Notes under the pieces: generated by a model
What the model saw: the letters and a program-made list of their open reading frames with translations, nothing else
What the model was told of the DNA's origin: nothing
Databases searched by the model: none
In this document: one piece after another, positions 15,848 through 32,296 of the stretch
Numbering within the stretch: position 1 is the first letter of the stretch
Layout: each line of letters begins with the position of its first letter
Source of the DNA: an uncultured bacterium
GTDB lineage: Bacteria; Bacillota; Clostridia; Oscillospirales; Oscillospiraceae
Direction of reading: 5' to 3'
Length of the DNA stretch: 32,296 nt
NCBI GenBank assembly: GCA_946548895.1
Contig: CAMNQF010000038.1
Location: forward strand, 1-32,296
Program-made: the position numbers and the translations under genes

Positions 15848-15850
15848 CCC

Positions 15851-16944: not shown

Positions 16945-17340
16945 TTAGCCGTCACCCAGGGGGTGCAGACTTGAGGCTGTTTTTACCAGGTTATCCGCCT
17001 CTTTTGGGGCAGTTTCAGGCATGTAGGCAGCCCGCAGAAGACCCCACAGGAGGGCAGAGGGAACGATGAGGAGGGCGAGAATAAACGCGCCGATATGTTT
17101 ATGCGCAAGTAGGATTTGGAAAAAAGCGTCGCTCCACCAGGCGCGAATGACCAAGATACCGAAGAGGAGGTAAAGAACAGCGCAAATTCCTAGACATGTC
17201 CAGAAAAGAAATCTGCGGTGGAATATTTTTTGTGTTTCAAGGCGTACACTACTGTCATTGGCAGGGAGGCTTATGTCTTTTCCATTGGAAAAATCCATTG
17301 CAAAAGTTTCTTGGTTTTTCTCTTGATTATCAGAGGTCAT
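16945..17340 (-). CDS. Two-TM membrane protein paired with ImmA/IrrE
   Basis: The 131-residue protein has a polar N-terminus (1-42) and two transmembrane helices (about 44-66 and 83-105) joined by a short loop with W68-W69 and K81, then a polar tail. It overlaps the end of the ImmA/IrrE gene by 11 bases, and GAGGAAT lies 8 bases before its ATG, so the two are translated together. No family is recognised. A membrane partner or effector of the protease is an inference from this coupling. Confidence 0.65.
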   Translation of the reverse strand: MTSDNQEKNQETFAMDFSNGKDISLPANDSSVRLETQKIFHRRFLFWTCLGICAVLYLLFGILVIRAWWSDAFFQILLAHKHIGAFILALLIVPSALLWGLLRAAYMPETAPKEADNLVKTASSLHPLGDG

Positions 17341-17809: not shown

Positions 17810-17828
17810 GGTACACTCTCCTTGTATG

Positions 17829-17857
17829 TTTATATCCATCCACTGAGAAAAAAACAA
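17829..17857 (-). promoter_or_regulatory. Sigma70-type promoter of the ImmA/2TM/SNase unit
   Basis: On the minus strand TTGTTT (17852-17857) and TATAAA (17829-17834) are separated by exactly 17 bases. The transcript would begin a few bases before the ribosome site of the ImmA/IrrE gene. The -35 is made from the T-run of the terminator just upstream, so one unit ends and the next begins in about 50 bases. Confidence 0.65.
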
Positions 17858-17877
17858 GGCCGGGACTTCTCCCGGCC
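17851..17877 (-). terminator. Intrinsic terminator upstream of the ImmA unit
   Basis: GGCCGGGA and TCCCGGCC (17858-17865 and 17870-17877) form a perfect 8-pair stem with a 4-base loop, followed on the minus strand by TTGTTTTTTT. It would end transcription from the antirepressor-like genes at 17912-18847, insulating the ImmA unit. Confidence 0.8.
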
Positions 17878-17911
17878 CTTCCATTGTTTCAGGCTTTCCG
17901 GCCTACGCCAC

Positions 17912-18130
17912 CTACCTCAACGGCTCATCCAGCAGCCAGTGCGCGGCCTCCCGGAACCTTGGCCCCGGGATGGTGGAATACTTGCAGCCGAACCGTTCCC
18001 GTATCAGAGCGAACAGGGCGTGCTGGCACTCCCTGCGGTGACGCGGATTCCGTCCGGCCCGATAGGCTTCGACGCGGATAAGGGCCAGAATGGCCTGACG
18101 CTGGTACTCGTTGATACGCTGCATCTCCAT
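17912..18130 (-). CDS. Small antirepressor C-domain-like protein
   Basis: The 72-residue basic protein contains HALFALIRERFGCKYSTIPGPRFREAAHWL, which resembles the C-terminal (ORF6C-type) domain of phage antirepressors and related proteins. ATG 18130 follows AGGGGGC by three bases; ATG 18124 is an alternative. It begins just after the antirepressor remnant, with which it probably shared an operon. Function unknown. Confidence 0.5.
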   Translation of the reverse strand: MEMQRINEYQRQAILALIRVEAYRAGRNPRHRRECQHALFALIRERFGCKYSTIPGPRFREAAHWLLDEPLR

Positions 18131-18138
18131 CACGCCCC

Positions 18139-18847
18139 CTACCTGCTGAAGCTGACGTGCGCCCTGATGTTGTAGATCATGCGCAGGGCGTAGATGGCCT
18201 GATTGAGCGAGGTAACGGCCACGTTGGCGGCTTCGTTGGCGTTGTCGTAGAGCATCTGTTTTTCATGGGGCAGGAACGCGCTACGTCCTCCGGGGCGGGC
18301 AAAAATGTGCAGGGCTTCCCGAATGCCCTCGGCATTGCGCCGGAGCTTGTTCACATCGTCGAAAAACTGCTTGCCGTTCGCATAGGTCTTGGCGTCAAGC
18401 GTGGTGACGGCCAATGCCTGTTCAGGCGCGGGCTCAATGGCCGGGGCAACTGTCAAGGATTCCTTGTCGGTTGGCGGAGAAGGCGGCAGGGCGTCGATCC
18501 TGCCCTGCACATACTGAATGGCCTCTTTCACCTGCGCGACGGTGAGCGCGTCCACGGAGGCAACGCCGAAATGCGCGTTCACCTGCGCGCGGGCGGAAGC
18601 GTAGTGAACAGGAGCCATGTCCACCCAGGTGTTGATGATGGCCGTCAGTTGCTTGCGCTCCGGGTCGGTACGCTTGGAGAGGGGGGAAGGCAACGTGTCG
18701 GGATTTCCGACAGGTTCAGCAAGCCGCGCCCGCTCTTCCTCCGCGAGCTTATCCAGCACATCCAGAACCCAGCGCCGGAACGCCTTGGCTACGGGGGTGC
18801 AGCCGGACACGTTTTGCCAGCTCGAAAATGCGTTCTTCAAAGTCCAT
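18139..18847 (-). pseudogene. BRO-type antirepressor lacking its N-domain, joined to a foreign gene start
   Basis: A minus-strand frame (open back to 18954) encodes VAKAFRRWVLDVLDKLAEEE, PLSKRTDPERKQLTAI, YASARAQVNAHFGVASVDAL and a helical tail, which match the linker and C-terminal domain of phage BRO/Rha-type antirepressors. The BRO-N domain expected before it is missing. Instead, in another frame, GGAGGGAG and ATG 18847 start MDFEERIFELAKRV, which resembles the beginning of phage genes with a type I restriction (HSDR_N-like) nuclease domain, and then breaks off. This looks like a deletion that fused two genes out of frame. A shorter functional product cannot be excluded. Confidence 0.5.
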
Positions 18848-18955
18848 TTTTCTCCCTCCAGTACAGACTTTACAGAGTGGCGCAGACTCGCATCCGGCGC
18901 ATCCGCTTTCGCATATGTGCCCGTGCTCTGCTGACGGCAAAATGATGCGGGCATG

Positions 18956-18984
18956 AAATGGCCTGAATTGTCCTAAAATACCCA
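18956..18984 (+). repeat. 29-bp direct repeat, copy 2 (before resumed tail genes)
   Basis: Identical over 29 bases to 5532-5560. It lies between the inverted accessory block and the next rightward structural gene at 19050. Here rightward transcription must restart if the block contains a terminator, so this location supports a late promoter or activator-site role. Confidence 0.7.
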
Positions 18985-19049
18985 CATGGAAAAAGCAATT
19001 TTTGCAGCGGATTTGTGATAGAGTGTTTTTCAAAGTCGGGAGGAGCGTC

Positions 19050-19496
19050 ATGGCGGGCATTACGGTGAGCGGCGGCAATAAATGGCGGAAGGCGCTGGAG
19101 CGTCTGGCCCGAAAGGTTCAGGTGCGGGCCGGAGTGCTGGAGGGAGCCACGACTACGGAGGGGCAGTCTGTTGCTCAGTATGCCGCCTACAACGAATTTG
19201 GCACAGCCCGCATTCCTGCGCGGCCATTTATGCGGTCAACATTAACGGAACAGCGCCAGGCATGGATCAACGGCTTTTCAGCCTTGCTCAAGGCCGGACG
19301 CACACCGGATGAAGCCCTGCGACGGGTGGGGGAGCGCATGGCGAGAAATATCAAGGACAAGATTTTGAGCAATATGGAACCGGCAAATGCCGCGTCCACC
19401 ATAGCCAGGAAGAACAAAAAAGAAGCCGGTCGCGCTGGGACGCTCGTGGATACTGGCACTCTGGAAAAGTCCATCAATTTTGAGGTTCAGGCATGA
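19050..19496 (+). CDS. HK97 gp10-like neck/tail completion protein
   Basis: The 148-residue protein shows the gp10-like pattern: a basic N-terminal helix (WRKALERLARKVQ), VRAGVLEGATTTEG, the conserved YAAYNEFGTARIPARPFMRSTL and a C-terminal LVDTGTLEKSINFEV. GGAGGAG precedes ATG 19050, which is preferred over an upstream in-frame TTG. It restarts the rightward late genes after the accessory block and overlaps the next gene by 4 bases. Confidence 0.75.
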   Translation: MAGITVSGGNKWRKALERLARKVQVRAGVLEGATTTEGQSVAQYAAYNEFGTARIPARPFMRSTLTEQRQAWINGFSALLKAGRTPDEALRRVGERMARNIKDKILSNMEPANAASTIARKNKKEAGRAGTLVDTGTLEKSINFEVQA

Positions 19497-19933
19497 TCAA
19501 CCTCCACGCCGCCGTCCGTTCCGCCATCACCGGTCTGCACCCGGACGAAGCCGTAGCCCTGCGGCAGTCCGTGGGGCAGCAGAACGTGCGCGGGCGCATC
19601 ACGCCAGTCTATGCCCCGGAGCAGACAGTGCAGGCGCAGATCCAGAGTCTTGGGCAAAATGACCTCGCGCAGGCGGAACAGACCAGCAACACGCGGGTTG
19701 ACCGCAAGGCCTACCTCTACGCTCCGAATCCGGCACTTCCCCCGCAGGGCATTGTCCGTCCTCTTGCGCGCAATGGGGACATGCTCCGGCGCGCTGACGG
19801 CACATGGTGGCTGGTGACGGCCATGATTGAGGATTTCACGGCCTCCGGCTGGGTCTGCGTGGGCATCACCCAGCAGGTGGACGGCCCGGACCTGAGCGCG
19901 TCTGATGCGGGGGGCGGAAATGCCGACGCCTGA
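19493..19933 (+). CDS. Hypothetical head-tail junction protein
   Basis: This 146-residue protein lies in the neck gene cluster. It has a helical start and a beta-rich middle (VRGRITPVYAPEQTVQAQIQ, DRKAYLYAPN, DGTWWLVTAMIEDFTASGW). It overlaps both neighbours by a few bases. The fold resembles small connector or stopper proteins, but the family is not recognised with confidence. Confidence 0.65.
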   Translation: MINLHAAVRSAITGLHPDEAVALRQSVGQQNVRGRITPVYAPEQTVQAQIQSLGQNDLAQAEQTSNTRVDRKAYLYAPNPALPPQGIVRPLARNGDMLRRADGTWWLVTAMIEDFTASGWVCVGITQQVDGPDLSASDAGGGNADA

Positions 19934-20492
19934 AGCCCCTCTGGACGTGCTGGGCGCTGTTCATGACTTTCTGGCCGCGCATATCGACATTGCGCCTGCC
20001 GTCATCGTGCGCGGCTGGCAAAACCGCGCCGCTTTGCCCAATGTGTCGTCCTATGTGGTGCTGACGCTCATCAACGCGCCGCGCAGGGGCACGAACGTCC
20101 ACATCTGGGAAAACGACAACGCGGGCGACGGCATCACCGAAAGCGTGCGCATGCTCACGCTCTATGAGGTGCAGATTGACTTCTGCGGGCTGGATGAGGC
20201 CGCAGTCAACGCGCAGGCCGCGCGGCTCGTCATGCTGGCGCGCGACGCCGTGGCCGTGGATTTTTTCAGGGCGCGGGGGCTGTCGTGCCAGTATGCGGAC
20301 GACCCGCGTTCCCTGCCGTTTTCCAACGACGTGGACCAGTGGGAGGTGCGCTATTCCGTGACCCTGCGCCTGTCAGCCTGGAATGCGGCGGACATTGCCC
20401 GCGACGCCTTCCGGGACGTGAATATCAGAATTGAGGACGTGGACGTGCACCATCCCGCCCACGCCAGCATAACCGCAAAGGAGATGCCATAG
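19920..20492 (+). CDS. Tail terminator/neck protein candidate
   Basis: ATG 19920 opens a 190-residue protein with a short helical start (VLGAVHDFLAAHI), VIVRGWQNRAALPNVSSYVVLTLIN and MLTLYEVQIDFCG, typical of the phage neck or tail terminator family that precedes sheath genes in contractile phages. It ends at the first base of the sheath start codon. Confidence 0.65.
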   Translation: MPTPEAPLDVLGAVHDFLAAHIDIAPAVIVRGWQNRAALPNVSSYVVLTLINAPRRGTNVHIWENDNAGDGITESVRMLTLYEVQIDFCGLDEAAVNAQAARLVMLARDAVAVDFFRARGLSCQYADDPRSLPFSNDVDQWEVRYSVTLRLSAWNAADIARDAFRDVNIRIEDVDVHHPAHASITAKEMP

Positions 20493-22369
20493 TGAGCATT
20501 CCGGCTTCACAAATCGTCCAGGTTAATCCGCGTCTTCTGACGCCGGGCGGCACGGACCTTGAGTTCAATGGCCTGCTGCTTTCCGATTCGCCGCTGATTC
20601 CGGCGTCGCAGCTCGTTCTTCCCTTCCCGGATTCGGCGAGTGTGGGAGAGTATTTTGGTCTGGAATCGCCGGAATATCAGGCCGCCCAGGTCTACTTCCT
20701 GGGCTACAACAATTCCTTCAAAAAGCCGCGCGCGCTCTACATTGCCAGCCGTGTGGCCGAGGCCACTGCCGCATGGCTGCGCGGCGGCGCGTGGAACGGC
20801 ACGCTGACCGCCCTGAAACAGGCTGGCATAGGCGGCCTGACGCTCACGGTCAATGGCGAGACGGTCAGGGCGCAAAACGTATCCTTTGCCACGGCCGCCA
20901 GCCCGAGCGACGTGGCCCAGGTCCTCCAGTCCGCGCTTAATGCCGGTTCCACGCCCGGCACTCCGGCGCGGCCCGCTGTACTCACGGGCGGGAGCATCAC
21001 ATTTTCCGGGCTGGAGTCCATCACGGACGGCGGTTTTGCCATAGAAGTCAACGGTACGGAACACGAAGTGGAAGGGCTGGACCTCTCCGCCGTTACGTCG
21101 CCGCTGGAGCTTGCCACAGCTCTAACAGGCAAGATTCCCGGCGTCATGGTGTCCGCAAGCGCGGACGGCCTCGTGCTGACCACTACGGAAACAGGCGCTG
21201 CGGCGAGCATCGGCTATGCCGCGGTCCCGGCGTCCGGAACGGACGTTTCGACCCTGCTGGCGCTCACCTCGGCCACGGGCGCGGACAGCGTGAACGGCGC
21301 GGACGCCGTGCCGCCCGTGGGCGTTCCCGGCATTACCGTGGCCTATTCCAGCCTGACCAAGGCGTGGACCATCACCAGCCCCACTACGGGCGCGGAATCC
21401 GCCATCACCTACGCGCAAGCGCCGGAAACCGGCGTTGACTTCGCCGGGCTGCTCAATCTCACGGAGCAGGCCGGGGCCGTGCTGTCACCGGGGCTGGACG
21501 CCATGAGCCATGCGGCCAACATGGAGGCCATTCTTGACCTGACGGAAAATTTCGTCTGCTTCACCACCGTCGCGCAGCCCACGGAGGCGGACGCGCTAGG
21601 GCTGGCGCAATGGGCGTCGGGCAACGGCGTGGCCTACCTCTATATCTATTGGGACAACGACCCCAAGCTGCTCCAGCCCAACAACACGTCCACCATCGCG
21701 GCGGCGCTCACCGAGGCCAACGTGGGCGCCACCTGCGGCGTGTGGAACAGCCTGGCCTACGCCGCCATGATCATGGGCACGGCGGCCAGCATCGACTGGG
21801 AACGGCGCAACGGAACCATCACCTTCGCCTTCAAAAGCCAGGACGGACTTGCCGCCAATGTGGTGACAGGAACCGACGCCATCAACCTTGAAGCCCAGAA
21901 CATGAACTTCATGGGCGATTACGCCACACGCAACGATCAGTTCGTTTTCCTTTATCCGGGGCGCATGTTCGGCCAATGGACGTGGATCGACACCTACCTC
22001 AATGCGGTCTGGCTGAACAACGCACTTCAGGTGGCGTGCATGGCCGGTTTCGAGCAGACGCCGCGCGTGCCCTACAACGACGAGGGCTATGCGCTTGTGC
22101 GCGCCTGGATGCAGGACCCGGTGAACCGCGCCCTGTACTCCGGCATCATCGACACCGGCGTCACGCTTTCGGAATCGCAGAAGGCGGAACTGACGCGCGA
22201 GGCCGGACGCGACATTTCCGCCCAACTGTTCACGGACGGCTACGTCATCCAGGTCAACGACCCGGCCCCGACGGTGCGACAGAAGCGGGAAAGCCCGGAG
22301 GCAAGTTGTTGGTACTGTTATGGTGGAAGCGTTCACAAATTAACCATTGCAAGCACCGCCCTTGTATAG
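20492..22369 (+). CDS. Tail sheath protein (DUF3383 family)
   Basis: The 625-residue protein has the DUF3383 sheath pattern: IVQVNPRLLTPGG at the start, SVGEYFGLESPEYQAAQVYF with a following KPRALYIA, and a conserved C-terminal half (TENFVCFTTV, VAYLYIYWDNDP, YATRNDQFVFLYPGRMFGQW, ending WYCYGGSVHKLTIASTALV). Residues about 95-315 are Ala/Thr/Gly-rich repeats of beta type and probably form the outer domain. The presence of a sheath shows a contractile tail. GTG 20492 overlaps the preceding stop and has AAAGGAG upstream. Confidence 0.85.
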   Translation: MSIPASQIVQVNPRLLTPGGTDLEFNGLLLSDSPLIPASQLVLPFPDSASVGEYFGLESPEYQAAQVYFLGYNNSFKKPRALYIASRVAEATAAWLRGGAWNGTLTALKQAGIGGLTLTVNGETVRAQNVSFATAASPSDVAQVLQSALNAGSTPGTPARPAVLTGGSITFSGLESITDGGFAIEVNGTEHEVEGLDLSAVTSPLELATALTGKIPGVMVSASADGLVLTTTETGAAASIGYAAVPASGTDVSTLLALTSATGADSVNGADAVPPVGVPGITVAYSSLTKAWTITSPTTGAESAITYAQAPETGVDFAGLLNLTEQAGAVLSPGLDAMSHAANMEAILDLTENFVCFTTVAQPTEADALGLAQWASGNGVAYLYIYWDNDPKLLQPNNTSTIAAALTEANVGATCGVWNSLAYAAMIMGTAASIDWERRNGTITFAFKSQDGLAANVVTGTDAINLEAQNMNFMGDYATRNDQFVFLYPGRMFGQWTWIDTYLNAVWLNNALQVACMAGFEQTPRVPYNDEGYALVRAWMQDPVNRALYSGIIDTGVTLSESQKAELTREAGRDISAQLFTDGYVIQVNDPAPTVRQKRESPEASCWYCYGGSVHKLTIASTALV

Positions 22370-22375
22370 TAAATT

Positions 22376-22404
22376 GCGCTTACTTCTATAATTGGGGTAA
22401 GCGC
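22376..22404 (+). promoter_or_regulatory. Hairpin with embedded -10 box before the homing endonuclease
   Basis: GCGCTTAC (22376-22383) and GTAAGCGC (22397-22404) form a perfect 8-pair stem that ends directly at the ATG, with the ribosome site GGGG in the loop and stem edge. The loop also contains a perfect TATAAT (22387-22392), with TTGTAT 19 bases upstream. Read-through RNA from the sheath would fold over the start, which is how some phages silence homing endonucleases. Confidence 0.5.
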
Positions 22405-23370
22405 ATGAAAAAACAAAATTTAGTTGGTGGAAAATTTGGGAAATTGACAGTGATTGCCGAAGCCGAAAACCTGGGAGGCCGCGTCGCCTGGAAATGCCAA
22501 TGCGAGTGTGGAAATACGGCAATCGTCAGAGCCACGGATTTAAAAAGTGGCAATACAAAATCCTGTGGCTGCGCTCATGCTGATGGCGTTTTGAAAACGG
22601 CTGAAAAGAACAGAGGCAAGCCGAGCAAAAGACTTATCGACTTGGCCGGTCAGATTTTCGGTAGGCTTACGGTTATTCGGCGTGTGGAAAACAATCAAAA
22701 AGGTCTCCCCATGTGGGAATGTCAGTGTGAATGCGGAAATAAGGTAAACGTGCGCGGTGATGTCTTGCGGTATGGCATGACGCAATCGTGTGGCTGCTTG
22801 GCCCGCGAAAAAGCAGCGACGCGCATCCGTACACGTTATGCTGGCAAACCTTCACCCAAATTGAAAGATTTAACCGGGAAGGTTTTCGGCTATTTGACGG
22901 TCATCAGGAGATTGACGGAAGAGGAAGGCGCAAAACGTGGTGTGGCAAAGTGGTTATGTCAGTGTAAGTGTGGCAATATGACGCATACATGTTCAGCCAA
23001 ACTGGTTTCCGGAGAAACCAGATCATGTGGATGTCTGGGACTTGAAAATGCCACAAATGCCAAGCTGAAACATGGAGATGCGACCTACAGACGGCGTCAA
23101 CGTCTTTACGGGATATGGTGTACCATGCGTCGGCGCTGCATGGATCCTCACGTTGATGTGTGGAAATACTACGGAGGCAAAGGCATCAAGGTGTGCGAGG
23201 AATGGGCGCATGATTATGCGGTTTTCAAGGCGTGGGCATTGGCGAATGGATATCAGGCGGGTTTGACCATAGACCGGATTGATCCCGATGGGGATTATTG
23301 TCCTGAAAACTGCCAATGGATTACAGCCTTTGAAAACAGTTCAAAAGCACATCGGAAAAAGCCGAAATGA
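22405..23370 (+). CDS. HNH homing endonuclease with three zinc-ribbon repeats
   Basis: The 321-residue protein has three repeats of about 70 residues, each of the form FGxLTVI ... W-x-C-Q-C-x-C-G-N ... S-C-G-C, which should bind zinc and DNA. After them come RLYGIWCTMRRRC, VWKYYGGKGIKVC and TIDRIDPDGDYCPENCQW, the HNH-type nuclease core found in phage homing endonucleases. The gene is A/T-richer than its neighbours and splits sheath from tube, so it is a selfish insertion. No intron was seen; sheath and tube frames look complete. Confidence 0.85.
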   Translation: MKKQNLVGGKFGKLTVIAEAENLGGRVAWKCQCECGNTAIVRATDLKSGNTKSCGCAHADGVLKTAEKNRGKPSKRLIDLAGQIFGRLTVIRRVENNQKGLPMWECQCECGNKVNVRGDVLRYGMTQSCGCLAREKAATRIRTRYAGKPSPKLKDLTGKVFGYLTVIRRLTEEEGAKRGVAKWLCQCKCGNMTHTCSAKLVSGETRSCGCLGLENATNAKLKHGDATYRRRQRLYGIWCTMRRRCMDPHVDVWKYYGGKGIKVCEEWAHDYAVFKAWALANGYQAGLTIDRIDPDGDYCPENCQWITAFENSSKAHRKKPK

Positions 23371-23383
23371 AGGAGCATGAAGC

Positions 23384-23824
23384 ATGAGCCAACTTGTAGG
23401 CGACATCACCAGCGCCAACGCGACGCTGGTTCTGACTGTGGATTTTCTGTTCCCGGCGGGCATCCGTCTGGAGCAGTTCGCCACCGACCAGAGCTACAGC
23501 ATGGATGAACTGACCATTGCCGAGGACCGCATGGGCGTGGACGGCAATCTGGTGGCCGGCTGGGTTCCCAGCATCAAGTCTGTGACCATCATGCTGGAGG
23601 CGTCCAGCCCCAGTTATCAGTCAATGGCGCAGCTCTACCGCGCCTGTGAGCAAAAGCGCGGTTTTTACCGCTGCGGGCTGGTGGCGGCTGTGCCGAGCAT
23701 CGGCAAAACCTTCATCTGGTCGCAGGGCGTGCTCAAATCCGGTACGCCGGTTCCGGCGGGCAAGAAGGTGCTGGATCCGACCACTTGGAAATTCGACTTC
23801 GGCAAGCTGGAAATGCAGGGCTAG
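23384..23824 (+). CDS. Tail tube protein
   Basis: The 146-residue, beta-rich protein follows the sheath (once the endonuclease is ignored) and precedes the tail assembly chaperone, the usual tube position. Features are VDFLFPAGIRLEQFATDQSYSM, DGNLVAGWVPSIKSVTIML and a C-terminal WKFDFGKLEM. Family name is not certain, but position and composition are convincing. Confidence 0.75.
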   Translation: MSQLVGDITSANATLVLTVDFLFPAGIRLEQFATDQSYSMDELTIAEDRMGVDGNLVAGWVPSIKSVTIMLEASSPSYQSMAQLYRACEQKRGFYRCGLVAAVPSIGKTFIWSQGVLKSGTPVPAGKKVLDPTTWKFDFGKLEMQG

Positions 23825-23833
23825 GGAGGGAAA

Positions 23834-24340
23834 ATGCGGAAGGAAAAGAAGATCGTCGTCAACGACCGGGGCCGTGAACTGGCCTTTGTGGTGCGGGAAA
23901 TGCCGGCCACGAAGCTTGAAAGCTTCATCGTGCGCGCGGGCCTGCTCATTGCAGGGGCCGGGCTGGCGGACGGGATGCTGGGCGGGAAAAAGCCCGATGA
24001 ACCGCTGGACGCCGCGCACGTCATGCAGGCAGCGAGAAAGATTGTCACACAGGGCGGCGACCTGCTCCGGGCGCTGGGCGCTGTGGAGTATGAAAAGGCG
24101 CGCCCCCTGCTCGATGAACTGCTGGCCTGCTGCACCCCGGCTGATGCCGTCGCGCCCCTCACGCCCGAGACGGCGGATGGCGTCATTGAGGACGTGCGCA
24201 CGCTGTTCACGCTTCGCAAGGAGGCGTTGGCGCTCAATTTTGATTTTTTCGCCAGCGCCGGGCCGTCCGGCTCCCCGGCATCCGGGAACCAGGGCCAGTA
24301 CTCGCGCAAACCCAAAATATCAGTCCGCTCGCAGGACTGA
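23834..24340 (+). CDS. Tail assembly chaperone, short form (G-like)
   Basis: The 168-residue zero-frame product starts MRKEKKIVVNDRGRELAFVV, then has a helical region, and ends SVRSQD. It lies between tube and tape measure, the conserved chaperone position. A slippery T-TTT-TTC at 24244-24250 (codons 138-139) allows a -1 shift into the following frame. The short form should be the abundant product, as with lambda gpG. Confidence 0.75.
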   Translation: MRKEKKIVVNDRGRELAFVVREMPATKLESFIVRAGLLIAGAGLADGMLGGKKPDEPLDAAHVMQAARKIVTQGGDLLRALGAVEYEKARPLLDELLACCTPADAVAPLTPETADGVIEDVRTLFTLRKEALALNFDFFASAGPSGSPASGNQGQYSRKPKISVRSQD

Positions 24341-24480
24341 TTATCGGCGAACGGCTGGCAACCCTGCGAGAACTGGAAACATATTACAGCTATGAGGACG
24401 CCCTGAACATGGCCGAAGTCATCCAGATACGGGCGCATAATGAATACATAACGGCCAAGGCAGCGCAAAAGGCTCACTGA
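23834..24480 (+). CDS. Tail assembly chaperone, -1 frameshift form (GT-like)
   Basis: Slipping one base back at 24244-24250 would continue for 76 codons to TGA 24478-24480, giving about 215 residues. The extension contains LIIGERLATLRELETYYSYEDALNM and IQIRAHNEYI, the usual T-domain look. The -1 frame is closed upstream by TGA 24241-24243, immediately before the slippery site, and has no convincing start of its own, so frameshifting is the best explanation. The tape measure start overlaps its stop (TGATG). Confidence 0.75.
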
Positions 24481-26024
24481 TGGAAGTGGACAGCCTCGTC
24501 ATATCTCTGGGGCTTGACCCGCAACAGTTGCGGCAGGCGCTCGGCCAGGTGGAAGCCATGCTGCGGCAGTTCGTGCAACGCGTCAATGCGTTTGCCGGGG
24601 ACTTCCAGCAAGGCTTTAACGACGCCGCCAACTCCGTGGAGCAGGCCTCAAACGCGGCCGCGCGGCAGGCGGACGCGGCGGGCGAGTCAGCGCAAGAAGC
24701 GGGGCACAAATTCCAGAAGGCCGGCAAGGATGGCGGACAAGGCATGCAAGAGCTTGCCGCCAAAACGCGCCAGGCCGGAGCGGCGGCCCGCCAGACAGGC
24801 GGCGAGATGCAGACCCTTGGGCGCAAGTGGGGCGCGTTTCTGGGCGGCATGGCGGCCCGTTTCGCCGCGCCGCTGGCCGGGGCGCTTTCCGCCGGGGCCA
24901 TAGTGGGCGGTTATATGCGCGACGTGTCCCAGGTGGCGCAGATGACCGGGCGCTACTCCACACAAATGGAGGAGTGGCGCAAGAAACGTGAACTGCTGTC
25001 GCGCATCAGCCGGGAGGATGTGGAGCTGTACCGCAAGGGCAAGCTGGCCCTGCTGGACTTCAATTTTGCCATGGCCGGGCTGTCCACCACCATCATGCGG
25101 GCACTGTCCCCGGCCATCCGCTTCGGCATAGATCTGCTGACCTCGCTGGCGGACTGGATACGCCGCAACGAGCCGAACATTATCCGTTTCTTCGCCGTCC
25201 TGGCCGGAACGATTACGGCGGTGCTGATACCGGCCTTTGCCAGGCTGGCCAAAACAATGCTGATGAATCCCCTGACGCTGATCATTGCGGGCATCCTGCT
25301 GTTGGCCTTGGTTATTGACGACCTTGTGACCTACATCCGGGGCGGCGAGTCCAAATTGGAAGGCCTGTGGTCGCAGTTCGGCACGGGTGAGGAGATCGCT
25401 AGGTCTCTTGGCGAAGCCTGGGAATGGCTGAAGTCTGTCGGCGAGGTTCTATTTGACGGCCTCCTCAGCGCGGGCAAAGCGTTCATCGCCAATTTTGGCG
25501 ACGCTTTTGAGGGCCTCAAGGGGGTGGTGCAGGGAACCATCAATTTCATCAAGGCTGTTTTCGCGGGCAACTGGGAGGACGCCGGGGCCGCTGTGCGTCA
25601 GGCGTTCACTGGGGCTTTTGAGTATATTCTAGGCATATTCAAGGGGATTATCCGAACCATCAGGGACGCTATTGCCGGTCTGCTGGATATGATGCCTTCA
25701 TGGGAGGGCATCAAGTCAGGCGCGGCAGCAACATGGAAAGGAATAAAGGATTTTGGCGCAGGTCTGTTGGGCGGTAATGGAGAGGCAAAGGCTGGAACGC
25801 CCACCGCGCTCCCGCCCACCAACGCCGAATTGACCCGCACCGCCGTTCCCCCCTCCGCCACGGTGAACAATACCAAAAATCAGAAAATTGACGCCACTTA
25901 TAACACCAACGTCTATGCTCCCGGCGCGGACCCGCAGGCAATGGCCAACGCTTTCGGCAATCAGATGCGGCAACAGAACGCCCAGTTTGGCGCGCTTGCC
26001 GCTGAAGGAGGCGTCCGGCCATGA
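24480..26024 (+). CDS. Tail tape measure protein
   Basis: The 514-residue protein is Ala/Gln-rich and coiled-coil-like at the N-terminus (about 10-120) and has several hydrophobic segments, including about 236-255 (FFAVLAGTITAVLIPAFARL) and 262-284 (NPLTLIIAGILLLALVIDDL). The C-terminus is Thr/Asn-rich. This architecture and the position after the chaperone define tape measure proteins. By the usual 1.5 angstrom per residue, the tail would be short, near 75 nm. Confidence 0.85.
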   Translation: MEVDSLVISLGLDPQQLRQALGQVEAMLRQFVQRVNAFAGDFQQGFNDAANSVEQASNAAARQADAAGESAQEAGHKFQKAGKDGGQGMQELAAKTRQAGAAARQTGGEMQTLGRKWGAFLGGMAARFAAPLAGALSAGAIVGGYMRDVSQVAQMTGRYSTQMEEWRKKRELLSRISREDVELYRKGKLALLDFNFAMAGLSTTIMRALSPAIRFGIDLLTSLADWIRRNEPNIIRFFAVLAGTITAVLIPAFARLAKTMLMNPLTLIIAGILLLALVIDDLVTYIRGGESKLEGLWSQFGTGEEIARSLGEAWEWLKSVGEVLFDGLLSAGKAFIANFGDAFEGLKGVVQGTINFIKAVFAGNWEDAGAAVRQAFTGAFEYILGIFKGIIRTIRDAIAGLLDMMPSWEGIKSGAAATWKGIKDFGAGLLGGNGEAKAGTPTALPPTNAELTRTAVPPSATVNNTKNQKIDATYNTNVYAPGADPQAMANAFGNQMRQQNAQFGALAAEGGVRP

Positions 26025-26533
26025 GTCAGTTTCCGCAACGCGTCACGGGCAACTGGACGCTGAACAACGCGTCAGGCGAAGCGGTGGTGCGGTTCACGTC
26101 CTTTCTCTCGCTGGATTTGCGCAATGAAAGCCTTGTGGTGTCCGGCCCTGTGGAGGAGGGCGGTTTTGCCACATACAACAAGGTTGAAACGCCGCTGGAG
26201 GTGGATGTTTCCCTGGGCATTGAGGGCGACGACGCCACCCTGCAAACGGCGCTGGATACGCTGGACAAGCTTCAGGCCGGGACCGAACTGCTCAGCCTGG
26301 TCACGCCCAATGCGGAATACCAGGATCTGAATCTGGAAGGCTTTAGTTACAGGCGCAGGCGTGAGGATGGTCTGGGCGTGCTGTGGGTGGATCTCTCCCT
26401 GGTGGGCGTCAAGCAGGTCAAGGCCGAATATACCAACGCGCGTGTGGGGCGCCGCAAGCAGCGCGGCAAGGTGCAGGCCACGGAAAAATCGGCGCTCAAA
26501 GGCCTTAGCGAATGGATCGGCGGGGGCAAGTAA
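26021..26533 (+). CDS. Baseplate/tail protein following the tape measure
   Basis: The 170-residue protein overlaps the tape measure stop by 4 bases. It is beta-rich (GEAVVRFTSFLSLDLRNESL, ETPLEVDVSLGIEGDD, LGVLWVDLSLVGVKQVKAEY) with a basic C-terminus. It precedes the plug and hub genes, so it is a baseplate component, possibly the sheath-terminal or central ring protein. Confidence 0.65.
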   Translation: MSQFPQRVTGNWTLNNASGEAVVRFTSFLSLDLRNESLVVSGPVEEGGFATYNKVETPLEVDVSLGIEGDDATLQTALDTLDKLQAGTELLSLVTPNAEYQDLNLEGFSYRRRREDGLGVLWVDLSLVGVKQVKAEYTNARVGRRKQRGKVQATEKSALKGLSEWIGGGK

Positions 26534-26886
26534 TGCTGGAACTGCCGCTGGAAGCAACCGTCAATCAGGAATTTCTGGTCACGCTGGGCGAGCAGGATTG
26601 CACTGTGGCCCTCTATCAGCGCGGCGCGGGCATGTATCTGGATTTGCGCGTGGGTGGCGTAACCGTGTGTCAGGGGGCCATCTGCCAGCCAGGAATAGGC
26701 ATCATTCAGGCAGCAACGGACACCTTCGAGGGCCAGCTCTACATGCTGGACGAGCGCTCGCGTCCTGACCAGCAGCAAGCGCCCCAATGGACGGGGCTTG
26801 GCACGAGATGGCGGCTCTACTGGCTCACGCCGGAAGAGGTGGATGAAGTGGAAACCGCAAATTTCGAGGCGGCGCTCAATGGCTGA
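26533..26886 (+). CDS. Baseplate plug-like protein
   Basis: The 117-residue protein has LPLEATVNQEFLVTLGEQDC, an alternating-strand middle (MYLDLRVGGVTVCQGAICQPG) and GLGTRWRLYWLTPEEV, resembling the baseplate plug family of small contractile phages (Pam3-type). ATG 26533 overlaps the previous stop (TAATG). It overlaps the hub gene by 8 bases. Confidence 0.65.
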   Translation: MLELPLEATVNQEFLVTLGEQDCTVALYQRGAGMYLDLRVGGVTVCQGAICQPGIGIIQAATDTFEGQLYMLDERSRPDQQQAPQWTGLGTRWRLYWLTPEEVDEVETANFEAALNG

Positions 26887-27781
26887 CGGTTCCTTTACCA
26901 AAAAGCTGCTGGAAGTGCATGTGACGCTTCAGGCGGGACAGTTCGAGGGCGGCAACACCAAGATTATCAAGGACGTGCCGCTCAAGGTGCGCATCGAAAA
27001 GACCGGCCCGCCCGACTTCTGCAAGGCCAGCATCGAGGCACGGGGCCTGCGTTATGAGGATATGGAGAAGATGTCCACCCTGGCTTTCCGGCCTTTGTTT
27101 TCTGCGCGCAATTCCGTGGCCGTGTTCGCGGGAGACGAACGCGACGGCCTTTCGCGGGCCTTTTCCGGCTCCATCACCCAGGCTTCGGCTGATTTCAACG
27201 CCGCGCCGGACGTGTCGTTCAAGATCGAGGCCATGACCGGCTATTTCGGGGCCATCACGCCGCAAAGTCCCACAGCTGTCAGGGCCGCGCAGCCGGCGGC
27301 GGACTTTATCGCCATGCAGGCCAAAAAAGCGGGCTTCACATTTCAGAACGATGGCGTAACCACGCAACTGAACAACGCCATTTTTAACGGTTCGCCCGTG
27401 GCGCAGGCGCGCGCGGCCGCGCGGCAGATCGGCGCGGAACTGATTATCGACGACGACGTCATGATTCTCAGCCCCGCCGGGGGGGCGGGCACAAAGGCCG
27501 GAGGAGGGCGCGGCAACGCTGTTTTGCTGAGCAAGACCACAGGCATGCTCGGCTATCCCGTGTTGTCCAACGAGGGCATCCAGTTGCAGGCGCTCTACAA
27601 TCCCGCCTTCCGCCTGGGCGGACTGGTGCGGGTGGAAAGCATCGTGCCCAAGGCGTCCGGAACCTGGCGCATCATCAAGCTGACCCACGACCTCGCGGCC
27701 TTTGATCCCAAGGGCGGCCCGTGGGAAAGCCAGATGACGACGTATTACCCCAGCATGAGCGGCGCGGGAGGCAAGATATGA
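26879..27781 (+). CDS. Baseplate hub protein
   Basis: The 300-residue protein is beta-rich and fits the gp27/gpD-like hub: LLEVHVTLQAGQFEG, KVRIEKTGPPDFCKASIEARGL, a lipid-domain-like middle, then RGNAVLLSKTTGMLGYPVLS, LQALYNPAFRLGGLVRVES and GTWRIIKLTHDLAA. This last part is the standard hub C-terminal barrel. It overlaps the spike gene by 4 bases. Confidence 0.78.
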   Translation: MADGSFTKKLLEVHVTLQAGQFEGGNTKIIKDVPLKVRIEKTGPPDFCKASIEARGLRYEDMEKMSTLAFRPLFSARNSVAVFAGDERDGLSRAFSGSITQASADFNAAPDVSFKIEAMTGYFGAITPQSPTAVRAAQPAADFIAMQAKKAGFTFQNDGVTTQLNNAIFNGSPVAQARAAARQIGAELIIDDDVMILSPAGGAGTKAGGGRGNAVLLSKTTGMLGYPVLSNEGIQLQALYNPAFRLGGLVRVESIVPKASGTWRIIKLTHDLAAFDPKGGPWESQMTTYYPSMSGAGGKI

Positions 27782-28530
27782 GCAGGAAGGAAAATCGCGG
27801 CCTGCGCGACCCGTACATGCTGGCATCGGGCTACAACCAGCTTGAGTTCATCGTGCGGCGCATCATTTCGGAGATGGTCAACACCTCCGCCATCGTGCGC
27901 GTGGACGGCTGCACCTCGCAGGGGCCGGAAGGTCCGGCGGGCACGGTGAGCGCCACGCCGCTGGTGGCCCAGACCGACGCCGAGGGCAACGCCCTGCCCA
28001 TGACGCAAATCCCGTCCATGCCGCACGGGCGCGTGCAGGGCGGCATCGCCGCGCTCATCATTGACCCCGTGCCGGGCGACATCGGCGTGGCCTCGTTCTG
28101 CAAGTCCGATTCCTCCACCGTCAAACCGGGAACCAGCGAGCCGCAGCGCCCCGGCAGCTTTCGCAATTTCGACCAGGCGGACGGCATGCTGGTGGCGACG
28201 GTGAGCAACAAGGCCCCGGAAGTGTGGATCGAGATCAGGCAGGACAAGACCATCATCATTCACGCGCCGGAGGGCTGCGCCATCAAGACGGATAAAATCG
28301 CGGAAATCAAGGCCGGGGAAGGCATCGTTTTGGACACGCCGCAGACCACCATCACCGGCAATCTGACCGCCACCGGCGAAAAGGGCAACGCCATCAGCAT
28401 GACCGGGAACGTCCAGCTTGACGGCAGCCTCACCAGCACCGGCGACCAGACGGCGAACGGCATCAGCCAGACAAACCACACGCACACCGGCGTCCAGCCC
28501 GGCAGCGGCGATACCGGCAAACCGCAGTAG
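27778..28530 (+). CDS. Membrane-puncturing spike (gp138/gpV-like)
   Basis: The 250-residue protein begins with an OB-like domain (IVRVDGCTSQGPEGPAGTV, GGIAALIIDPVPGDIGVASF) followed by a beta-helix (AEIKAGEGIVLDTPQTTITG, NLTATGEKGNAISMTGNVQLDGS). It ends near THTGVQPGSG with an HxH pair (NHTH), which in gpV and gp138 spikes binds iron at the trimer tip. It would pierce the outer membrane. Confidence 0.85.
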   Translation: MSRKENRGLRDPYMLASGYNQLEFIVRRIISEMVNTSAIVRVDGCTSQGPEGPAGTVSATPLVAQTDAEGNALPMTQIPSMPHGRVQGGIAALIIDPVPGDIGVASFCKSDSSTVKPGTSEPQRPGSFRNFDQADGMLVATVSNKAPEVWIEIRQDKTIIIHAPEGCAIKTDKIAEIKAGEGIVLDTPQTTITGNLTATGEKGNAISMTGNVQLDGSLTSTGDQTANGISQTNHTHTGVQPGSGDTGKPQ

Positions 28531-28538
28531 GGACATAT

Positions 28539-28898
28539 ATGGCAATCGGGCATTCCCTCACGCTTGATCTGGACAACTGGGATCTGACGCTGGACGCGGG
28601 CGGCGACATCGCCACGGCGACCGGCCCCTATGCCATCGCCCAGAACGTGGCCAACGCCGTGCGCCTGTTCACCAACGACGCCTTTTATGACCCGCAACGC
28701 GGCATTCCGCACTTCATCGTTGACCTCGGTTTTCTGCCCCAGGAAAGCGTGGTGCGCTCCCGCGTGGGCGCGGCCGCGCGGGGTGTGGAGGGCGTGGCAA
28801 CAGTCGAGGTGGAAAATCTTGACCTTGAGGAACGGGTGCTCACCGGAAATATCCAGTTGACCACCAGCGAGGGAGATACGGTCGATGTTGCACTTTGA
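28539..28898 (+). CDS. Baseplate wedge protein (gp25/gp46-like)
   Basis: The 119-residue protein has the gp25-like order: LDLDNWDLTLDAGGDIATATG, IAQNVANAVRLFTNDAFYD with the conserved PQRGIPH, then RVGAAARGVEGVATVEVE. gp25-type proteins start sheath assembly on the baseplate. It overlaps the gpJ-like gene by 14 bases. Confidence 0.85.
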   Translation: MAIGHSLTLDLDNWDLTLDAGGDIATATGPYAIAQNVANAVRLFTNDAFYDPQRGIPHFIVDLGFLPQESVVRSRVGAAARGVEGVATVEVENLDLEERVLTGNIQLTTSEGDTVDVAL

Positions 28899-30105
28899 CC
28901 CCCAGACCGGCCTGAGCGCCGATTCCGTGAGCACGGTGCGCGAGGCCGTGCGCGAAGACTGGAAGGCGGCCTTCAGGCGTGAAGGCCTCCCCGAACTGAA
29001 CACTGAGCCGGAAACCCCGGCCGGCCAGCTTATCGACAGCCAGACCGCCGCCATTGTGGACAAGGACAATGAGGTGCTCTTCCTTGCCAACCAGTTCAAT
29101 CCGTTGACGGCCTCCGGCATCTGGCAGGATGCCTTGGGCAAAATCTATTTTCTCACGCGCAAGACGGCGCAGGCTTCGGAAGCCGTATGCCAGTGTAATG
29201 GGCTTGCCGGAACGGTCATCACGCAGGGCGCGCGCATCAAATCCAGCGCGGACGGGGCGGAATGGGTCTGTATGGAGGCGATTGTCATCCCCGCAGGCGG
29301 CACGGCGCAGGCGCGCTTTCGCTCACAGACGCCCGGTCCTGTGGCGGCGCAGGCCAATACCCTGACGGAGATCGTCACCGTCACGCCCGGCTGGGACAGC
29401 GTGACCAATCCGGCGGTGGCCACCGTTGGCCGTGACGTGGAAAGCCGGCTTGAGTTCGAGACGCGGCGCTACAACAGCGTGGCCGCCAACGCGCGCGGCA
29501 GCGTGGCGGCGCTCTACGGGGCCATCGCCAATCTTCCGGACGTGCTGGATGTGGTGGTGCTGGAAAATGTGGGCAATGACCCCATTGTTTCGTGGGGCGT
29601 GACCATCCCCGGTCATAGCGTGTGGATCGCCGTCACCGGCGGAACGGACAGCGAGATAGCCGAAACCATCTACCGCAAAAAGGACGCGGGCTGCGGCACG
29701 GCGGGCAACACGCAGATCGGCTATCAGGATGCGGAATTGCCGGGCATGCCCATTTATACTTACCGCATCGAGCGCCCCACGCCGCTGGCCTTTGGCGTAC
29801 GGGTCACGCTGCGCCTCACGCCCACCACGCCGCAGGATATTGAACAGCGGGTCAAGGATGCCATTCTGGCGGATTTCAACGGTGCTGGCCCGCATGACAA
29901 TCTGCGCGTAGGCACGGCGCAGGAGGTCTATGCCTCGCGCTTTTATTGCGCGGTCATCGGGGCGGGCGTCCAGAACCTTGTGAGCATCGAGATCGCGGCG
30001 CCCGCATCCGGCGGAACATGGGGGCCGAGTGCCACAGTCAACGCCGACCAGGCTCCGGTGCTGAGCGCGGACGACATCAGCATAGTCATCGCCGGGGACG
30101 CCTAG
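28885..30105 (+). CDS. Baseplate J-like wedge protein (gp47 family)
   Basis: The 406-residue protein is a typical baseplate J-like protein: TPAGQLIDSQTAAIVDKDNE, LTASGIWQDALGKIYFLTRK, GTVITQGARIKSSADGAEW, then RRYNSVAANARGSVAALYG and DVLDVVVLENVGND. It forms the wedge with the gp25-like and DUF2612 proteins on either side. Confidence 0.88.
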   Translation: MLHFDPQTGLSADSVSTVREAVREDWKAAFRREGLPELNTEPETPAGQLIDSQTAAIVDKDNEVLFLANQFNPLTASGIWQDALGKIYFLTRKTAQASEAVCQCNGLAGTVITQGARIKSSADGAEWVCMEAIVIPAGGTAQARFRSQTPGPVAAQANTLTEIVTVTPGWDSVTNPAVATVGRDVESRLEFETRRYNSVAANARGSVAALYGAIANLPDVLDVVVLENVGNDPIVSWGVTIPGHSVWIAVTGGTDSEIAETIYRKKDAGCGTAGNTQIGYQDAELPGMPIYTYRIERPTPLAFGVRVTLRLTPTTPQDIEQRVKDAILADFNGAGPHDNLRVGTAQEVYASRFYCAVIGAGVQNLVSIEIAAPASGGTWGPSATVNADQAPVLSADDISIVIAGDA

Positions 30106-30107
30106 CC

Positions 30108-30755
30108 ATGTTGCAACCCGGAGAAACCATTCAGAGCCAGTACGCGGCCAGCCCGACCATCCGGGCGCTGGCCGAATCGGCGCGCATCCGCATCGCCCCG
30201 GATGCGGACATCGCCCTGTTCTATCAGAACATTTTTGACATCGCCACGGCGCAGGGCGTGGGGCTGGACATCTGGGGGCGCATCCTCGGCATTGGCCGCA
30301 GCATTGAGGTCGAGGCGCGGCGTGAGTATTTCGGCTTCAACACGGCCGATTACGACCCCTTTGACACCAGCCCGTTTTACACCGGCGAAGGGGCGACGGA
30401 GCGTTACGACCTGAGTGATGACTCCTACCGTCAGTTGCTGCTCTGGAAAGCAATGGCGAACATCGCCACGGCGGACGCGGCCTCACTGAATCATCTGCTG
30501 CTGGCGCTCTATCCGGGACAGGACGTCGTTATCCATGAATGGGGCGTCATGGCCCTGGAACTGTATATCTTCTTCCCGCTGCTCCCGTGGCAGCGCACCA
30601 TTCTGCGCAATTACGGCTTGTTGGCAAAAGGCGCGGGCGTTGGCCTGAAATGGGTCGAGATTCCCACGCCTGTTTTTGGTTTTGCCGAGGCCAATTACGA
30701 ACCCTTTGACAGCGCGCCTTTCTGGACAACGCATTACACGGAGGTATCCGCATGA
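30108..30755 (+). CDS. Baseplate protein (DUF2612, gpI-like)
   Basis: The 215-residue protein has SPTIRALAESARIRI, GVGLDIWGRILGIGR, DDSYRQLLLWKAMANIA and a C-terminal FGFAEANYEPFDSAPF, the usual DUF2612 pattern; this acts where P2 gpI does, linking the baseplate wedge to fibres. A YDPFDTSPF / YEPFDSAPF motif appears twice. It overlaps the fibre gene by 4 bases. Confidence 0.78.
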   Translation: MLQPGETIQSQYAASPTIRALAESARIRIAPDADIALFYQNIFDIATAQGVGLDIWGRILGIGRSIEVEARREYFGFNTADYDPFDTSPFYTGEGATERYDLSDDSYRQLLLWKAMANIATADAASLNHLLLALYPGQDVVIHEWGVMALELYIFFPLLPWQRTILRNYGLLAKGAGVGLKWVEIPTPVFGFAEANYEPFDSAPFWTTHYTEVSA

Positions 30756-31684
30756 TTCCAGCCATTCCCACGCTGTTACCCATGCCGTTCGCGCAGAACG
30801 GCGAACGGCGCGACATTCTCGAAAACAACACCATTCCCGGCTCCGCCGACGCCTCATGGGCCACAGGCTTCCCGCCGGTGACGCGCATCAACAAGCAGGC
30901 CGGCGGCAAGCCGCCATATGGACTTGATTTTCAGGGAATTTTTTATGTTCTCAGCCAGCATCTTTTTTTTCTTCAGTCCGGGGGCGTCTACCCCTGGCAG
31001 GGAGCCAACGGCGACTTTCCCGGCCTTGATTACCTGGCCGGCGCGCATGTGCTGGGCAGCAACGGACAAGAATACATAGCCCTTAATCCGTCCGGCCCCA
31101 ATGTGCCGAAAGGGAGTGGCGGATTTGTCGGGCCTGTCGATCCGGTAACTGATGCAACCAATGAGTATTGGCGCAATGCCACTCCCAAAACTGATGCCGC
31201 AGGCCTGCGCCGTGGCGGCATTGCAGCCTACTACAACGTGACCTTCGGCGGTAGTGACGGCAGACGCCCGATTTTCTGGGGCGAAACCGAAGCTGACGAA
31301 AATTACGTTTTGTGCGACGGCGGTTCGGACGGGGCCGGCGGCATTGTGCCTGACTTGCGCGGGCGCATGATTATGGGCGCGTCCGATGCCCACCCGGCCG
31401 GCGAATCCGGCGGCTCGGAGACCCATACCCACAGTCTTTCCGGCACTGTCGGGGCCACAACGCTGACAGTTAATCAATTGGCGAGCCATACCCATGTTGT
31501 TCCCAATCAAACGGGGAAAAATACGTCCGGCAGTCATATCGGCGGGTGGAGTTGGGGATCACCTATCAATACCTATGCGACAGGAGGTTCCCAACCACAT
31601 GCGCATGACCTCGCGGCTTCCAGCGACGCGGCCTCATCATTGCCGCCCTGGTATACTTTGACGTTGGTCATGCGCATCGCATGA
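30752..31684 (+). CDS. Tail fibre with collar-like tip (currently expressed variant)
   Basis: The 310-residue protein has an N-terminal attachment part (RRDILENNTIPGSADASWATGFP), a middle with PPYGLDFQGIFYVLSQH, a collar-like domain (CDGGSDGAGGIVPDLRGRM, ETHTHSLSGTVGATTLT) and a C-terminal tip of 72 residues ending LPPWYTLTLVMRIA. The DNA coding SLSGTVGATTL is one arm of a 37-bp inverted repeat; the whole tip lies in the invertible segment and can be exchanged with the minus-strand copy. It probably contacts the host surface. Confidence 0.85.
   Translation: MIPAIPTLLPMPFAQNGERRDILENNTIPGSADASWATGFPPVTRINKQAGGKPPYGLDFQGIFYVLSQHLFFLQSGGVYPWQGANGDFPGLDYLAGAHVLGSNGQEYIALNPSGPNVPKGSGGFVGPVDPVTDATNEYWRNATPKTDAAGLRRGGIAAYYNVTFGGSDGRRPIFWGETEADENYVLCDGGSDGAGGIVPDLRGRMIMGASDAHPAGESGGSETHTHSLSGTVGATTLTVNQLASHTHVVPNQTGKNTSGSHIGGWSWGSPINTYATGGSQPHAHDLAASSDAASSLPPWYTLTLVMRIA
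31431..31467 (+). repeat. Left inverted repeat of the fibre-tip switch (IR-L)
   Basis: 37 bases starting ACAGTCTTTCCGGCACTG, identical to the reverse complement of 31888-31924 except at one base (A at 31459 versus G). Both versions encode S-L-S-G-T-V-G-A-T-T-L, the differing base being silent. ACAGT and ACTGT within it form a small internal dyad. Confidence 0.9.
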
Positions 31685-31924
31685 TGTATGTCGCCGCATA
31701 GTACGGCGGCAGGTTTTCGGCCGTGACGGCAGATGCGGAAAAAGCGTGGGCATGCTCTTGAGACGAACCGTTGTATGTCGACACGCACTCATTACTTGCT
31801 TGTGGGTAACGCGGCTCACGCACACTGCCGGAAGAGAAATATGCCTTTGATCCTACTCCATGATTATGACTCGGCATTTGCGCCGTGGTCAGCGTCGTGG
31901 CCCCGACAGTGCCGGAAAGACTGT
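31668..31924 (-). CDS. Silent alternative fibre-tip cassette
   Basis: The minus strand encodes SLSGTVGATTL and then TTAQMPSHNHGVGSKAYF, a middle EHAHAF motif, and LPPYYAATYIMRCA before its stop. It aligns with the plus-strand tip (T-V-N-Q-L-A-S-H-T-H, PHAHDL, LPPWYTLTLVMRIA) but is clearly diverged. Upstream of the inverted repeat the frame has no ribosome site or plausible start and reads antisense to the next gene, so it is expressed only after inversion. Confidence 0.85.
31888..31924 (-). repeat. Right inverted repeat of the fibre-tip switch (IR-R)
   Basis: Reverse-complement copy of 31431-31467, 36 of 37 bases identical. It lies 36 bases before the start of the next rightward gene, so inversion does not disturb that gene. 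Confidence 0.9.
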
Positions 31925-31959
31925 AGCAAACAAAAAAACAGCAAAAAAAGGAGTCTCTT

Positions 31960-32296
31960 ATGCGCGTTACCGTTGTTCCTGCTGACCGCCTCATTCTTGT
32001 TGACGGTGAGGGCCTGCAATTTGCTTTTGCCGCCCCGGAGGGTCTGCACGCCCTGCAATGGCAGGACGCCTCCGGGCATCTGGAATTCACGGAGGGCCGG
32101 CCGAATCAGGCGTTGACCGCGGCCGACTACGAGTCCCATGTCGCGCCGTTTGTCCAGGCATGGCAGGCCGAAAAAGCGCGTCTTGCCGAAGAGGCGGAGA
32201 AGGAGGAAGCCGCGCGCCTGGCCGAGTACAACAGCGAGTCCGCCCGCTATGCCCGCCTGCGCGCCGAGCGGGATCAGCGCGTGGCCGCCACGGACT
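31960..32296 (+). CDS. Tail fibre assembly/chaperone-like protein (3' end beyond window)
   Basis: ATG 31960 follows AAAGGAG and the frame is open to the window end (112 codons seen). The start is beta-rich (MRVTVVPADRLILVDGEGLQF) and followed by a charged coiled coil (QAEKARLAEEAEKEEAARL) and RLRAERDQRVAATD, the usual C-terminal look of small phage tail-assembly chaperones encoded after fibre genes. It likely helps fold both fibre variants. Confidence 0.7.
   Translation, partial: MRVTVVPADRLILVDGEGLQFAFAAPEGLHALQWQDASGHLEFTEGRPNQALTAADYESHVAPFVQAWQAEKARLAEEAEKEEAARLAEYNSESARYARLRAERDQRVAATD

Follow-up and report, generated by a model that had tools for sequence, protein, structure and literature searches.

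The window, that is, the whole stretch of 32,296 nucleotides analyzed here, is contig C38 of genome bin G000 and ends at position 32296 inside a tail fiber assembly gene. Near this end, a tail fiber gene with a constant shaft runs into a 37-bp sequence repeated in inverse orientation, and two facing tips, one attached to the shaft and one silent, precede the assembly gene (Table 1). The arms of the repeat are complementary at 36 of 37 positions and are separated by 420 nt; among the 11 inverted pairs reported in 29000-32296, the second longest was 29 nt at 72%. The repeat and the facing tips had been described in the first-pass annotation, made from the letters alone, and were found as described. 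Both arms are in frame as SLSGTVGATTLT, each on its own strand, their sole mismatch is silent (Thr ACA/ACG), and the minus-strand tip reads open as far as a stop at 31668-31670; the proposed mapping of position x to 63355-x therefore does bring the silent tip in frame with the shaft and supply a stop. A scan of the window placed the 13-bp core described below at the two tip starts only, both copies being intact. Pfam gave no domain in the fiber or tip B, and "collar" is a provisional label for these tips.

Table 1. Features at the right end of the window
Feature	Position	Strand	Basis or remark
Upstream gene, baseplate region (context)	30108..30755	+	PF11041 DUF2612
Tail fiber gene	30752..31684	+	Constant shaft to about 31436, then tip A, currently attached; phrog_12796 and phrog_5795 tail matches; shaft near-identical in L005
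Left 37-bp repeat arm	31431..31467	+	Codes SLSGTVGATTLT
13-bp core TTTCCGGCACTGT at shaft/tip A junction, proposed recombination site	31437..31449	+	Consensus of tip starts
Tip A, attached	31450..31684	+	Tip profile, 94 bits; silent homologue in L082
Overlap (17 bp) of convergent tip ends, TCATGCGCATCGCATGA	31668..31684	.	Overlap length common to most facing pairs
Tip B, silent, without a shaft in front	31668..31905	-	Tip profile, 99 bits; homologue in L082
Right 37-bp repeat arm	31888..31924	-	36/37 identical to left arm
13-bp core at start of silent tip B	31906..31918	-	Consensus of tip starts
Tail fiber assembly gene, start only (cut by contig end)	31960..32296	+	Homologue at L005 7220-7729, 71% DNA identity

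The IMG/VR record IMGVR_UViG_3300035421_000287 (L005), which is 40,801 bp long and has a terminal direct repeat of 73 bp, matches the window over 302-1280, 1276-1663, 1696-18821, and 18796-31483 at 99.2 to 99.9% and, judged by this identity, is the same phage. The identity halts just within the tip, and L005 has a different facing tip pair, the two arms of which match at 82% over 34 positions. Its assembly gene (7220-7729) matches PF16778 (Phage_tail_APC) and phrog_4912. A further relative, L006, whose fiber is 65% identical in the best segment, has a third facing pair, in which the 13-bp core is absent and the repeat sits further into the tip. Since L005 and L006 each have other facing pairs, the shaft appears stable while the tips differ.

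A second IMG/VR record, IMGVR_UViG_3300006217_000679 (L082), matches the window at 92% over 31437-32296, from the first base of the core. In this record, another fiber gene carries an attached tip D'. Three silent tips (E, A, and B') come next, then the assembly gene, and then a full recombinase gene (308 aa), located past the point where the window ends. Tip B has a homologue that is 98.4% identical and silent there (1903-2150), and tip A has one in a silent position (2432-2137; 82.8% with 48 gap positions), so tip A sits on the shaft in the window but not in L082. Likewise, silent tip D of L005 has an attached homologue in L082 (85%). The expectation of opposite arrangements in related prophages was thus borne out for homologous tips, attached in one phage and silent in another; no inverted form of the window phage itself was seen. 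In L075 (G571:C14), the right flank resembles that of the window (89% over 31641-32296) and leads to a recombinase gene split by an insertion; the first 160 bp of its tip (229-479) are 95.6% like tip B and a different end follows, suggesting that the 3' ends of tips undergo a further type of exchange. In L005, the recombinase has lost the C terminus together with the stretch where the catalytic Tyr would lie, and the silent core carries two changes; close relatives can therefore be locked. In place of that C terminus, L005 has 55 bp (8497-8551) that are 82% like the reverse of window 14144-14198, inside ORF 13769-14287. Predicted structures of the L082 recombinase and of the fiber of the window had mean pLDDT values of 46.9 and 26.8, too poor for use.

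No DNA relative of the fiber region was found among named phages, in which 101 records held fiber protein relatives, all below 60% identity and none covering 80% of the fiber. The bin itself was the sole source of fiber-region DNA in 99 genomes (the bin and 98 kin). An IMG/VR scan for facing cores 415 to 445 bp apart gave none and one for cores 446 to 476 bp apart gave L082; a protein-pattern search using the upstream gene returned the L005 record alone. We also searched a profile built from three fibers (window, L005, and L006). It matched 5 of 400 genomes of the bin's own family, namely, the bin and four weak matches, and 41 of 288 genomes in the family that includes a Desulfovibrio metagenome-assembled genome (MAG) with the relative L027. 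The tetranucleotide correlation of the window was 0.77 to 0.86 with four other contigs and 0.94 with the Desulfovibrio locus L027. Because of these tetranucleotide values, the 24 resolvase-family matches in bin G000, and the strong fiber relatives in the Desulfovibrio-type family, the contig may be misbinned. Elsewhere in the window, 29 bp are repeated exactly and in direct orientation 13 kb apart (5532-5560 and 18956-18984); the repeat is also present in L005, at 96.6%.

In several of the 41 genomes with fiber matches, tips stand in alternating orientation. Searching with a tip profile yielded 64 matches, including a very weak one, across 23 loci (20 fetched regions plus the window, L005, and L006), and arrays reached from related fiber genes ranged from 2 to at least 15 tips. 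The largest, in L062 (9348-13430), consists of at least 15 mostly alternating tips, 30 to 57% identical among themselves, with 16 cores; a recombinase gene in two frames and an assembly gene lie at one end, and no shaft appears before the contig end. Of 25 facing pairs, 21 had convergent tip ORFs sharing exactly 17 bp at their ends, and two more had an overlap of 22 bp. The 17-bp overlap (31668-31684 in the window) is near-palindromic, and its geometry is markedly fixed. The arrays are related to one another, five coming from the single genome G569, and many loci are in draft assemblies. In L068 (7156-12214), two facing tips have a recombinase gene on each side and no shaft, and the same contig has four other arrays; this arrangement is perhaps the product of recombination between prophages.

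Alignment of tip starts placed a 13-bp core, T[TGA]TC[CT]GG[CGA]ACTGT, often followed by [CG]GG, at the beginning of the tips, preceded by the shaft at attached tips and by unrelated sequence at silent ones. The relatives refine the proposed recombination site to these 13 bp, which lie within the 37-bp repeat of the first-pass annotation. The second base of the core is uniform within a locus (TAT in L064 and TTT in L069) and the base after the core differs among tips of a locus, so exchange would occur within the core. Codon usage was counted in 41 tip rows, the full set of 57 less 15 rows of L062 and 1 of L074. The core Thr codon was ACT in 39 of the 41, whereas elsewhere in those ORFs ACT made up 13% of 675 Thr codons; the core Ser codon was TCC in 40 of 41, as against 27% of 825 other Ser codons; and the core Gly codon was GGC in 38 of 41, as against a background of 51%, with the core Val codon mixed. 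As read from these figures, which relatedness of the loci inflates, the core is conserved beyond coding need. The pattern TDTCCGGCACTGTSGG had 41 matches in 16 of the 288 genomes, compared with 7 for a reversed control; clusters of two or more were tip arrays, and lone matches may be chance, given the control.

Site and enzyme differ together in two loci. L062 has the site variant TTTCTGG[GA]ACTGT, and its recombinase pieces are 49% and 61% identical to the L005 enzyme. L074 (40-720) has a divergent recombinase, 46% identical to that of L005, and a different repeated site, GAGTGCTACTAC, arranged back to back, perhaps an enzyme-site pair of other specificity.

In L005, the assembly gene is followed by a gene for a tyrosine recombinase (PF00589), and homologues were found at arrays. 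A search for a recombinase gene just right of 32296, serine or tyrosine, had been suggested by the first-pass annotation; the contig ends there, and in relatives the enzyme encoded past the assembly gene is a tyrosine, not a serine, recombinase. The four copies scanned (286 to 300 aa) contained PF00589 and no other Pfam family. Eight aligned copies keep the catalytic R, K, R, H, and Y residues, carry Tyr where box II normally has its first His, and end about 20 to 25 residues past the tyrosine of VYQH.

The recombinase adjoined 13 of the 15 multi-tip loci with a visible flank, in nine cases as one full ORF, and none of the 12 single-tip loci. Fisher's test gave p = 6e-6 with 0/12 and p = 2e-5 with the stricter 0/11 (L071 ends soon after its assembly gene), both values ignoring relatedness. 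Among the 12 single-tip loci, seven lack cores and match the tip profile weakly (26 to 83 bits); these are more distant fibers. Loci left out of the count were the window, L006, and L066, in which the contig ends before the recombinase position; L065 and L111, with a lone minus-strand tip and a recombinase; L089, whose tip stretch reads N; and L027, L083, L084, L086, and L106, which were not scanned as arrays. The two multi-tip loci without a recombinase in the fetched flank, both with facing tips, were L072, in which one core is lost and the plus tip has stops, and L077, whose genome has other recombinase copies. The gene is split or partial in L062, L075, and L076.

A recombinase profile was searched in the 288 genomes with up to eight candidates scored per genome; among those scored, 11 matches reached at least 448 bits and the next had 380. 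Nine of the 11 belong to multi-tip loci; of the remaining two, one neighbors a solitary silent tip (L065) and one the N-reading tip stretch of L089. Seven of the 11 are rows of the profile itself, and the other four (three in G569 and one in G525) are independent. Among 15 loci with integrases of 380 bits or less (L090 to L100 and L112 to L115, four of them from IMG/VR), 14 had neither tips nor cores. The remaining one, L090, has a 378-bit recombinase near a fiber whose tip stretch reads N, possibly representing a second linked recombinase clade. In both L089 and L090, the N stretch separates the end of the shaft from the assembly gene and is either a scaffold gap or masked sequence. In IMG/VR, the profile found 10 loci: L005, L082, L111 (a lone silent tip), and seven others without tips or cores.

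Comparison of 56 tips with a core yielded nine pairs at least 90% identical over at least 150 bp. In seven of these pairs, only 8 to 15 of the 40 upstream bases agree; the two others agree at 22 and at 27 (the window and L082, with the same flank). The seven pairs with unrelated upstream sequence share the core, two of them differing at its second base. Attached and silent copies were 100% identical within L063 and between the silent tip of L069 and the attached tip of L076; the latter two loci share a contig, and the 2.5 kb upstream of each are 91% identical. In the single assembly containing L063, 300 of 300 identical shaft bases run into two different tips, one of which is also present silent. 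The simplest reading is that both orientations existed in the sequenced population; a scaffolding error is possible, since the alternative junctions adjoin a 21-base run of N.

Taken together, these comparisons make it highly probable that the window holds the two-tip form of a phage tail fiber shufflon. The constant fiber shaft enters one 13-bp core, and a second, facing core starts the silent tip. A tyrosine recombinase, whose gene directly follows the assembly gene in relatives, would exchange strands between the cores, invert about 480 bp, and thereby join the other tip in frame to the shaft. Because the inversion would join the other tip to the shaft, a phage population with different fiber ends would result. 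We infer that the recombinase linked to arrays in relatives performs the inversion and that the window copy is active, its contig stopping before the recombinase. The tips most likely bind the host surface, because they match tail-protein families (phrog_5795) and form the end of the fiber, which is followed by its assembly gene; by analogy with known systems, tip exchange may alter adsorption or host range.

An invertible tip cassette acting as a switch had been proposed from the sequence, and the relatives support it; the likeness to the Mu type of switch does not extend to the enzyme linked to arrays in relatives. The overall arrangement, with a shaft, two facing tips, and then the assembly gene, is shared with Mu, and 24 PF00239 matches elsewhere in bin G000 could supply a Gin- or Cin-like serine invertase in trans, acting at the 37-bp repeats, if the bin is right. 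We nevertheless consider this Mu/P1-type explanation most improbable: the enzyme linked to arrays in relatives is PF00589, the core is a short asymmetric 13-mer, and no PF00239 match occurs in the near-identical 40.8-kb phage record with its 73-bp end repeat (G099), nor in G100, which is an 11-kb fragment, the window contig being incomplete as well. Mu and P1 inversion sites are 26 bp long, and the 13-bp core does not, as we judge it, look like gix or cix. The suspicion that the site may be of a different type, unlike gix/hix, was supported: relatives point to a 13-bp core with a tyrosine recombinase rather than a Gin-type serine invertase.

Homologous recombination or gene conversion might instead exchange the tips through short repeats, with no dedicated enzyme and the facing pairs serving as donor copies. 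Tip 3' ends do appear to have been exchanged (the L075 tip versus tip B), and the extent of the repeat differs between the window and L006. Against this, identity switches at the 13-bp core with unrelated sequence upstream, and 13 bp is too short for ordinary homologous exchange; moreover, codons are fixed at the core and arrays are linked to one recombinase clade, which leaves homologous exchange as the sole process quite improbable. A relic, in which a formerly inverting cassette has become locked in one state and tip B is left over without use, is compatible with the shufflon reading, concerns this copy only, and is rather unlikely. The truncated recombinase and changed silent core of L005 (more than 99% the same phage) and the damaged enzyme genes noted above favor such a relic, but both window cores are intact and tip B is open and nearly identical to a copy in L082, which has a full recombinase.

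Tyrosine-recombinase shufflons of this general kind are described for Bifidobacterium prophages, as Rin (PMC6109161), and for Eggerthella lenta prophages (PMC8778435), with short asymmetric cores of 11 bp (TTCCCTAACCC) and 8 bp (ttccgtat). Rin acts on a phage receptor-binding protein whose constant N-terminal part is joined by inversion to alternative C-terminal parts; a tyrosine recombinase without an arm-type domain lies beside the array and a short asymmetric site at each variable part. Here, too, a constant fiber part is accompanied by alternative C-terminal parts facing both ways, and a short asymmetric site, with a core unlike rix, is repeated at each. Alternative orientations occur between relatives and, apparently, within one assembly (L063). 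In relatives, a tyrosine recombinase in which PF00589 was the sole Pfam family of the four copies scanned lies beside the tips, the window contig stopping before that position. Unlike in Rin, homologous tips form facing pairs with a 17-bp stop overlap, the assembly gene lies between tips and recombinase, and the hosts belong to the Desulfovibrio family, with up to at least 15 tips. The window system is best likened to Rin by its layout, as a probable variant of the phage tyrosine-recombinase shufflon.

The R64 shufflon, with its Rci enzyme and sfx sites, is similar in multiple inversion at short asymmetric sites with one side conserved and one variable and in a tyrosine recombinase without an arm-binding domain, but it is plasmid-borne and acts on a pilus adhesin (PMC11852207 and PMC8138268). 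Rci homologues have an extra C-terminal domain, which the array enzymes lack as judged by length (they end about 20 to 25 aa past the Tyr). A plasmid collection gave 93 matching records, all below 60% identity, the best among the matches listed being 43%. The Mu G segment (Gin) and P1 C segment (Cin) resemble the present system in that a tail fiber end is inverted and fiber specificity changed; unlike here, they use a serine recombinase, of which none was found in the near-identical phage. Desulfovibrio piger prophages diversify tail fibers by diversity-generating retroelements, with a retron-type reverse transcriptase and a variable repeat and without inversion, according to a report whose main text does not contain the words inversion, recombinase, invertase, or shuffl- (PMC12724379). 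No description of a Desulfovibrio tail fiber shufflon was found in the literature searched, which included no preprints and few subscription papers.

Receptor-binding protein shufflons with tyrosine recombinases are known from Bifidobacterium and Eggerthella prophages (PMC6109161 and PMC8778435) in the literature searched, and the Desulfovibrio-type system is apparently a separate lineage. We tentatively suggest that phages of the Desulfovibrio family carry their own tail fiber shufflon lineage, with a distinct armless recombinase clade lacking the Rci C-terminal domain, enzyme and site that have codiverged, arrays from two to at least 15 tips, and a cassette of tips, assembly gene, and recombinase moving between shafts. 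As part of the same tentative reading, prophages may trade tips in trans, because cores are shared in genomes with several prophages; if so, a lysogen would hold a common library of fiber ends. Alternative tips probably let the phages change what they grip. The family offers graded array sizes, naturally damaged copies, and more than one kind of enzyme-site pair, and is therefore well suited to studying how an armless enzyme without the Rci domain favors inversion over deletion and for finding new site-enzyme pairs.

Contig ends tend to fall near the arrays (about 370 bp past the array in the window, inside the right arm in L006, and inside the array in L062), and this tendency is a warning for assemblies. 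Apart from the tail region, the window contains a macro-domain gene (PF01661) at 627-1280, and macro-like ORFs were seen by eye near arrays in L089 (8220-8774) and L077 (11038-11592).
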